Positions 30,958 to 32,254 of a stretch of DNA of 64,000 bases are shown piece after piece (the stretch's first letter is position 1; every line of letters begins with the position of its first letter). The notes below the pieces were generated by a model. The model was not told where the DNA came from, made no database searches, and saw only the letters and a program-made list of their open reading frames with translations. Both the position numbers and the translations under genes were made by a program. The DNA lies in NCBI RefSeq assembly GCF_008326425.1, contig NZ_AP018929.1, forward strand, positions 2,432,875 through 2,496,874, given 5' to 3'. This DNA comes from Sulfuracidifex tepidarius (lineage in GTDB: Archaea > Thermoproteota > Thermoprotei_A > Sulfolobales > Sulfolobaceae).

Positions 30958-31042
30958 TGCGGGAGGTGGGATTTGGACCCACGCAGGCCTACGCCACCGG
31001 AGCCTCAGTCCGGCCCCTTTGGCTTAGCTCGGGCACTCCCGC
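30958..31042 (-). tRNA. tRNA-Leu (anticodon GAG)
   Basis: Read on the minus strand, the 85 bases fold as a class II tRNA. The acceptor stem is GCGGGAG/CTCCCGC, the anticodon stem CCGGA/TCCGG encloses the loop CTGAGGC with anticodon GAG, there is a long variable arm, and the T arm is GTGGG-TCCAAAT-CCCAC with discriminator A. No intron is present and CCA is not encoded. A TATA-like TTTTTATG (31067-31075, minus) lies about 29 bases upstream. Confidence 0.93.
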
Positions 31043-31105: not shown

Positions 31106-31115
31106 CTTTAATAAG
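31106..31115 (+). promoter_or_regulatory. TATA box of the aRF1 gene
   Basis: CTTTAATAAG is centred about 27 bases before position 31138, so transcription is expected to begin roughly 5 bases before the ATG at 31144. This makes ATG 31144 the natural start of the aRF1 message, ahead of the in-frame stop discussed for that gene. Confidence 0.55.
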
Positions 31116-31143
31116 AATAAGACGAAATACATCTCGATTAGGG

Positions 31144-32254
31144 ATGAGTCTTTGACAAGTACTCAATAAGTAGACAGGAGCTTAAAGTTCTCCTCAGAGA
31201 GCTAAAGAAATGGTCTGCACCAGCTACAGTACTTCTATCACTTTACGTTCCTGAAGGTAGACCAGTAGCTGATGTGGTGAACTTGTTAAGAGAGGAGGCA
31301 TCCATATCCCAGAACATAAAGCTGAAGCGAACCAGAGATGCCGTGGAGTCAGCCATAACTGGAGCTATAGATAGGCTCACTCAATTGCCGAAGATACCCC
31401 CAAACGGGCTAGCTATGTTCTGCGGGGAGAACTTTGATAGCGGAGAGTATAAATGTTACATGTTCTCGCCTCCTGAGAAGGTTCTGGTCTTCTTTTACAG
31501 AACCGACAAGAACTTCCATACGGAATTCCTAGAAGACATGGTTGAAGACTCCGAAGCGTTCGGTCTAATAATAGTGGAGAGAGACCAAGCGACCATAGGT
31601 TTACTCAGGGGTTCCAGGATAGAAGTTCTAGAGGAATTCGAGGGTTACGTCCCCGGAAAACACATGATGGGTGGACAATCACAGCGACGTATAGACAGGC
31701 TAATAGAAGAAGCTTACGACCACTTCCTGAAAGAGGTAGGAGAGAAGGTCAATACATATTTCGTGCCTATAATTGAGGACAAGAAGATGCGTGCGATACT
31801 CCTTGGAGGCCCCGGTTACGCTAAAGAGGACTTCTATAAAGGCGACTACGTAGACTACAGAGTGAAGAAACTGATATTACAACCACTTTACGACCTTGCG
31901 GATCAGGGGGAGGTGGGGCTCCGCGACATGGTAGTGAAGGCTTCAGACATATTGAAGGAACAGAAGTACATAAAGGTCAACAACCTCATGGATGAAATAA
32001 AATACCACTTAGCGAAGGACGATGGAATGGTAATTTACGGAATAAATGAAATAAAGAAAGCCATAGAGCTTGGTGCTGTAGACTCACTAATTGTTTACGA
32101 CGATCCTAACAACCAAGAACTTCAAAGTTTAATACAGAAAGCTGAAGGCTATGGGACAACAGTTTTCGTGGTGGGAAGCGAGTTACCTGATGCAGAATGG
32201 GTTGGGAAAACCTTCGGAGGCGCTGTAGGGAAATTAAGGTTCAAATTATTATAA
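31144..32254 (+). CDS. prf1: Peptide chain release factor aRF1, joined by a +1 shift at CTT TGA C
   Basis: aRF1 reads all stop codons and triggers peptide release. Motifs: NIK in SQNIKLKR (residues 57-59 of the joined product), GGQ in MGGQSQRR (176-178) and a complete domain 3. The main frame (downstream of 31154) encodes the conserved N-terminus [10 protein letters not shown] and [14 protein letters not shown] but has no ATG, GTG or TTG between the upstream stop (31145-31147) and GTG 31274. The promoter-near ATG 31144 reads M-S-L and then TGA. Skipping T31153 in CTT TGA C joins the two into 369 residues, a normal aRF1 length. An indel or sequencing error is the alternative. Starting at GTG 31274 would lose 43 conserved residues. 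Confidence 0.85.

Follow-up and report, generated by a model that had tools for sequence, protein, structure and literature searches.

The gene for the archaeal class I release factor aRF1 at this locus appears to depend for its expression on an obligatory +1 programmed ribosomal frameshift, which aRF1 very probably autoregulates at the stop codon within its own gene. Comparison of related sequences leads us to give this reading a probability of about 0.88. The interruption of the aRF1 frame is more than a chance event, being present in all 31 genomes sampled from the family and in the majority of genomes from seven further groups of family rank. Positions below refer to the window, the whole 64,000-nucleotide stretch of DNA that was analysed, which belongs to a complete 2.56-Mb Sulfolobaceae assembly.

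A broken aRF1 frame

The window reads ATG AGT CTT TGA C from 31144 to 31156 (ATG 31144-31146, AGT 31147-31149, CTT 31150-31152, TGA 31153-31155, C 31156), exactly where the earlier note had placed it. The ATG opens a zero-frame mini-ORF on the forward strand (31144-31155) that encodes Met-Ser-Leu and then stops. The aRF1 frame lies +1 relative to this ATG and is without a usable start of its own: it opens at 31148 (GTC TTT GAC AAG and onward), immediately 3' of an in-frame TGA at 31145-31147, its first ATG, GTG or TTG is the GTG at 31274, and it ends at 32254. The earlier note had described the same in-frame stop and the same lack of a standard start before 31274, and the window bears it out. 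Skipping one base is the sole way of joining ATG 31144, and with it Met-Ser-Leu, to the aRF1 frame. The shift site CTT TGA C would thus span 31150-31156 on the forward strand, with GAC as the next codon, and the main coding frame entered after the shift would run from 31154 to its stop at 32254 on the same strand.

The translation of this frame scores 420 bits against TIGR03676, the aRF1/eRF1 equivalog family, for which the cut-off is 234.7, and it exceeds the cut-offs of all three Pfam domains, eRF1_1, eRF1_2 and eRF1_3. The GGQ motif of domain 2 is present (MMGGQSQRR), and solved homologues exist (PDB 3AGK and 8HKU). Neither Pfam nor NCBIfam gave a match to the bacterial RF1/RF2 family; because both return eRF1/aRF1 families only, the product is an aRF1/eRF1 class I release factor and not a homologue of RF2. 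No phage match was found. Translation from GTG 31274, the first standard start codon of the aRF1 frame, would yield a shortened protein with no need of a shift. Such a start would delete the conserved N-terminus common to ordinary aRF1s and the solved Aeropyrum pernix protein, and the codons upstream of it display the third-position variation typical of coding sequence, which makes it exceedingly improbable. Internal stops reported for some other aRF1 genes (L065 and L209-L211) turned out to be their C-terminal stop codons.

The reverse strand just upstream of aRF1 carries a divergent gene (30958-31042) for tRNA-Leu(GAG), the tRNA that reads the slip codon CUU. The two genes are no more than about 1.5 kb apart in 12 of the 24 Sulfolobaceae loci checked, and shared synteny is enough to explain their proximity. 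A genome-wide search limited to one pattern, exact ATGNNNCTTTGAC, returned three occurrences in the same genome; the other two (L204 and L205) are at genome positions 1056263 and 1898587.

Conservation and distribution of the proposed shift site

The aRF1 loci of 31 Sulfolobaceae genomes, representing 11 genus groups with protein identities of roughly 60-98%, all carry ATG AGT CTT, then TGA (29 genomes) or TAG (2), and then aRF1 in the +1 frame. Up to and including the shift site, not one of them has a start codon in the aRF1 frame, and ATGAGTCTTT is invariant throughout. Identity is complete from -1 to +9 relative to the ATG and nearly so at most positions from -8 to -2, and the variable third positions of the aRF1 frame begin directly after the shift. 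The Ser and Leu codons of the shift site are each identical in all 31 genomes; elsewhere in the gene, one codon is shared by at most 16 of the 31 at fully conserved Leu columns and by at most 12 at Ser columns. Two of these genomes (G008 and G016) match the Sulfolobus acidocaldarius aRF1 chain (PDB 8HKU) at 100% and both have the break, so that S. acidocaldarius, or a species identical to it over that part, carries it as well. One-base breaks are common artefacts, and the earlier note had allowed for a sequencing error or a recent one-base indel private to this genome; an identical break in independent assemblies of 31 genomes refutes both, leaving them a negligible probability. The same conservation supports that note's central claim of an archaeal release-factor gene in need of a +1 shift. 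Comparison of relatives, which it had proposed, finds CTTT-stop together with the break in every Sulfolobaceae genome checked and NTTT-stop in other families.

The wider group comprised 156 genomes, one of them from a neighbouring order. In 111 of the 156, a start codon leads through a few codons to a stop and aRF1 follows in the +1 frame. The codon before the stop is NTT in 109 of these break loci, distributed as ATT (46), CTT (39), TTT (22) and GTT (2); the remaining two have TAT TAG. At every one of the 109 NTT sites the stop is kept, as TAG in 77, TGA in 30 and TAA in 2, and all three stops occur at the shift position within a single family (f3). Whenever Ser comes next in aRF1, its codon is AGY (77 of 77 cases), compared with 47% in the rest of the gene. 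Likewise, TTT is used at the site in 109 of 109 loci and TTC never, against a 63% share of TTC among Phe codons elsewhere. From this constancy of stop, AGY and TTT, it is the stop codon together with NTTT that selection appears to retain.

An in-frame start at or upstream of the site is absent from 86 of the 109 NTT loci. It is formally conceivable that translation begins in the aRF1 frame at a non-standard codon such as GTC 31148, with no frameshifting at all, since archaeal start codons are incompletely known and a related genome outside the trait (L034), which lacks a standard in-frame start, may use ACG. Against this, the codon preceding TTT varies (GTC, GTT, GTA, CTA, GCA, ATA, GCT and others); L054 has TAA there, and its aRF1 frame begins with TTT immediately after that stop. 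What is conserved is the zero-frame start and stop, not an in-frame start codon, and the retention of TGA, TAG or TAA would be left unexplained. We consider such a start very improbable.

Families f6, f7, f8, f9 and f11b are without the motif; as a rule, an ordinary start codon in the aRF1 frame stands at the corresponding position. Aeropyrum pernix (G055, 100% to 3AGK) has a TTG in frame, and the f11b genomes encode M-S-L-S-D-K in frame, the sort of N-terminus that a shift would yield. Some 60 loci sampled from further families in the class and phylum showed no equivalent break. On the aRF1 tree the trait requires five changes, most simply explained by about one old gain, after f7 and f6 had split off, and four losses, with moderate support (86-94) for the branches that decide this history.

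Several loci depart from the pattern. Genus g22 has GTG, 7 nt and ATTTAGT, that is, one extra base between GTG and ATTTAG; a second, in-frame GTG has been regained in three of its loci (L050, L258 and L263), and two others (L255 and L264) lack a standard start codon in frame with aRF1, their GTG lying in the third frame. In genus g71 (L101 and L244) the site is GTG ATG AAG TAT TAG C, with UAU rather than NUU before the stop. An alternative in-frame GTG exists in L042 and L150, and a clear start is absent from L259. These exceptions mark the edge of the distribution, and the Sulfolobaceae case is unaffected by them. At L034, which belongs to f8 (G047), the aRF1 gene has no ATG, GTG or TTG in frame and reads ACG AGC TAC there, and its sister L080 has an in-frame ATG nearby; an ACG start or a sequencing error is possible.

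Leader, Shine-Dalgarno-like element and proposed mechanism

A TATA-like box of the predicted aRF1 promoter, TTTAATAA, is located at 31107-31114 on the forward strand. In the 31 Sulfolobaceae loci taken together, A+T-rich TATA-like elements cluster between -39 and -33 relative to the ATG. The leader GATTAGGG (31136-31143, forward strand), corresponding to -8 to -1, is nearly invariant in the same loci, and the sequence immediately upstream of it is unconserved. Judged only by the spacing from the TATA-like box, transcription is predicted to start at or near 31136, giving an mRNA leader of about 8 nt.

Complementarity to the 3' end of 16S rRNA, which in this genome is GGATCACCTCA, marks a candidate Shine-Dalgarno-like element, AGGGATG (31140-31146, forward strand), which overlaps the start codon and ends 3 nt before the P-site CTT. 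In all families with the break, complementarity peaks in segments ending 6-7 nt before the shift stop, placing the end of the element about 3 nt from the P-site codon. The peak is -5.0 kcal/mol in the Sulfolobaceae and -6 to -9 in other families; at the equal place relative to the start codon, the window as reference gives -0.8 over all its ATGs and -1.2 over its gene starts. The element is GGTG overlapping a GTG start in f2, and in the Sulfolobaceae AGGG abuts the ATG. So short a distance is too near for usual Shine-Dalgarno initiation and would suit a frameshift stimulator. Families with AUU as the slip codon tend toward stronger elements, an impression from few families that may reflect compensation. 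A stimulatory RNA structure downstream was not detected, the segment 31136-31235 folding no better than its shuffles (z -0.78).

We propose that ribosomes would initiate at ATG 31144 of a nearly leaderless mRNA and make Met-Ser-Leu, whereupon peptidyl-tRNA-Leu would be held on CUU with UGA in the A site. When aRF1 is plentiful, termination at UGA would release the tripeptide. When aRF1 is scarce, the ribosome would pause and tRNA-Leu would slip by one base from CUU to UUU, aided by base pairs between the AGGGAUG region and the 16S rRNA 3' end, after which translation would resume at GAC to give full aRF1. The frame break, its conservation and the conserved signals are observed; slippage, pairing with rRNA and feedback are what we infer from the loop known in bacteria. 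That the retained stop switches between TAG, TGA and TAA is what one would expect with an omnipotent release factor as the sensor. All three stop codons are read by archaeal aRF1 (PMC3521657), and any of them would therefore be allowed at the site.

A +1 shift of constant efficiency, indifferent to the level of aRF1, would equally make use of the site, and a set ratio is described for other frameshifts (PMC8211752). The product of the gene, however, is the very factor that reads the stop of the site, and the stop, of all three types, is always retained, which a slip site free of feedback would not need; we therefore regard a constitutive shift as improbable. Some features sit less comfortably with the proposed frameshift. 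In four families the slip codon is AUU, for which the rules known from E. coli predict poor re-pairing with UUU. The ATG, GTG or TTG present in frame in 23 of the 109 NTT loci could act as a start, the Sulfolobaceae Shine-Dalgarno-like element is weak at -5.0 kcal/mol, and genera g22 and g71 are exceptional. The predicted N-terminal peptides did not turn up in the papers searched for them.

The proposed archaeal release-factor recoding and other systems

Release-factor frameshifting is textbook autoregulatory recoding that has been described as bacterial, with giant viruses as the exception, and a 2012 paper states that such regulation is absent from archaeal and eukaryotic release-factor homologues (PMC3521657). 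Term searches of reviews on archaeal recoding (PMC8211752) and on frameshifting (PMC5009743) retrieved no passage on an archaeal release-factor frameshift, and the retrieved passages of the former do not name aRF1, RF2 or prfB. Nor does one occur in the retrieved passages of a survey that looked for frame transitions across 1106 genomes (PMC3711429), in which an upstream frame of three codons would be easily missed. In the papers searched we found no earlier report of an aRF1 frameshift; earlier publication in subscription papers or preprints is possible.

The comparative pattern makes it likely that an ancestor of most Sulfolobales acquired an autoregulatory +1 frameshift in its aRF1 gene, with an origin separate from that of bacterial RF2, and that the two came by convergence to share the same slip codon, stop, Shine-Dalgarno-like stimulator and spacing. 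In the archaeal version the stimulator would cover the start codon of an mRNA with hardly any leader, and aRF1, because it reads all three stops, would sense total termination capacity. The hallmarks of such recoding in an essential archaeal gene for a non-homologous, omnipotent factor suggest that self-control of release factors by slipping has evolved at least twice. If true, a cellular archaeal gene would hold a +1 frameshift of great age that has been retained in many lineages, Sulfolobus acidocaldarius included, and all three stops, four slip codons and several losses offer a natural comparison. A further implication is that the annotated starts of aRF1 in Sulfolobales genomes may be wrong.

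Frameshifting has a precedent in the Sulfolobales in fucA1, the alpha-L-fucosidase gene of Saccharolobus (Sulfolobus) solfataricus; that case, reviewed in PMC8211752, differs in being a -1 shift in a metabolic gene that is interrupted in some strains only. Closer in protein family is the eRF1-type factor of Mimivirus and Megavirus, for which autoregulation by recoding has been proposed, although that gene is viral and has two recoding events, one frameshift and one readthrough (PMC3521657).

In mechanism the proposed shift resembles that of bacterial prfB, where high RF2 favours termination at UGA and low RF2 a slip from CUU to UUU (PMC8710568, PMC5009743). Both are class I release-factor genes in which a short zero-frame ORF precedes a main frame in +1, and CUU as the slip codon, followed by UGA C, is common to the window and prfB. 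A zero frame closed by a stop right after a slippery NUU, with the main frame in +1, is found in the window and at the 109 NTT sites, and the arrangement is kept in distant relatives (111 of 156 genomes). Close 5' of the slip codon is a Shine-Dalgarno-like element, putative by its complementarity, which ends 3 nt before that codon, as does its counterpart in E. coli (AGGGGGUAUCUUUGAC, PMC8710568). In contrast to prfB, the archaeal protein is of the aRF1/eRF1 type, to which RF2 is non-homologous, and it reads all three stops, with UAG, UGA and UAA all found at the site. At the archaeal sites AUU, UUU or GUU can replace CUU as the slip codon, the zero frame has about 3-6 codons rather than 25, and the Shine-Dalgarno-like element overlaps or abuts the start codon.
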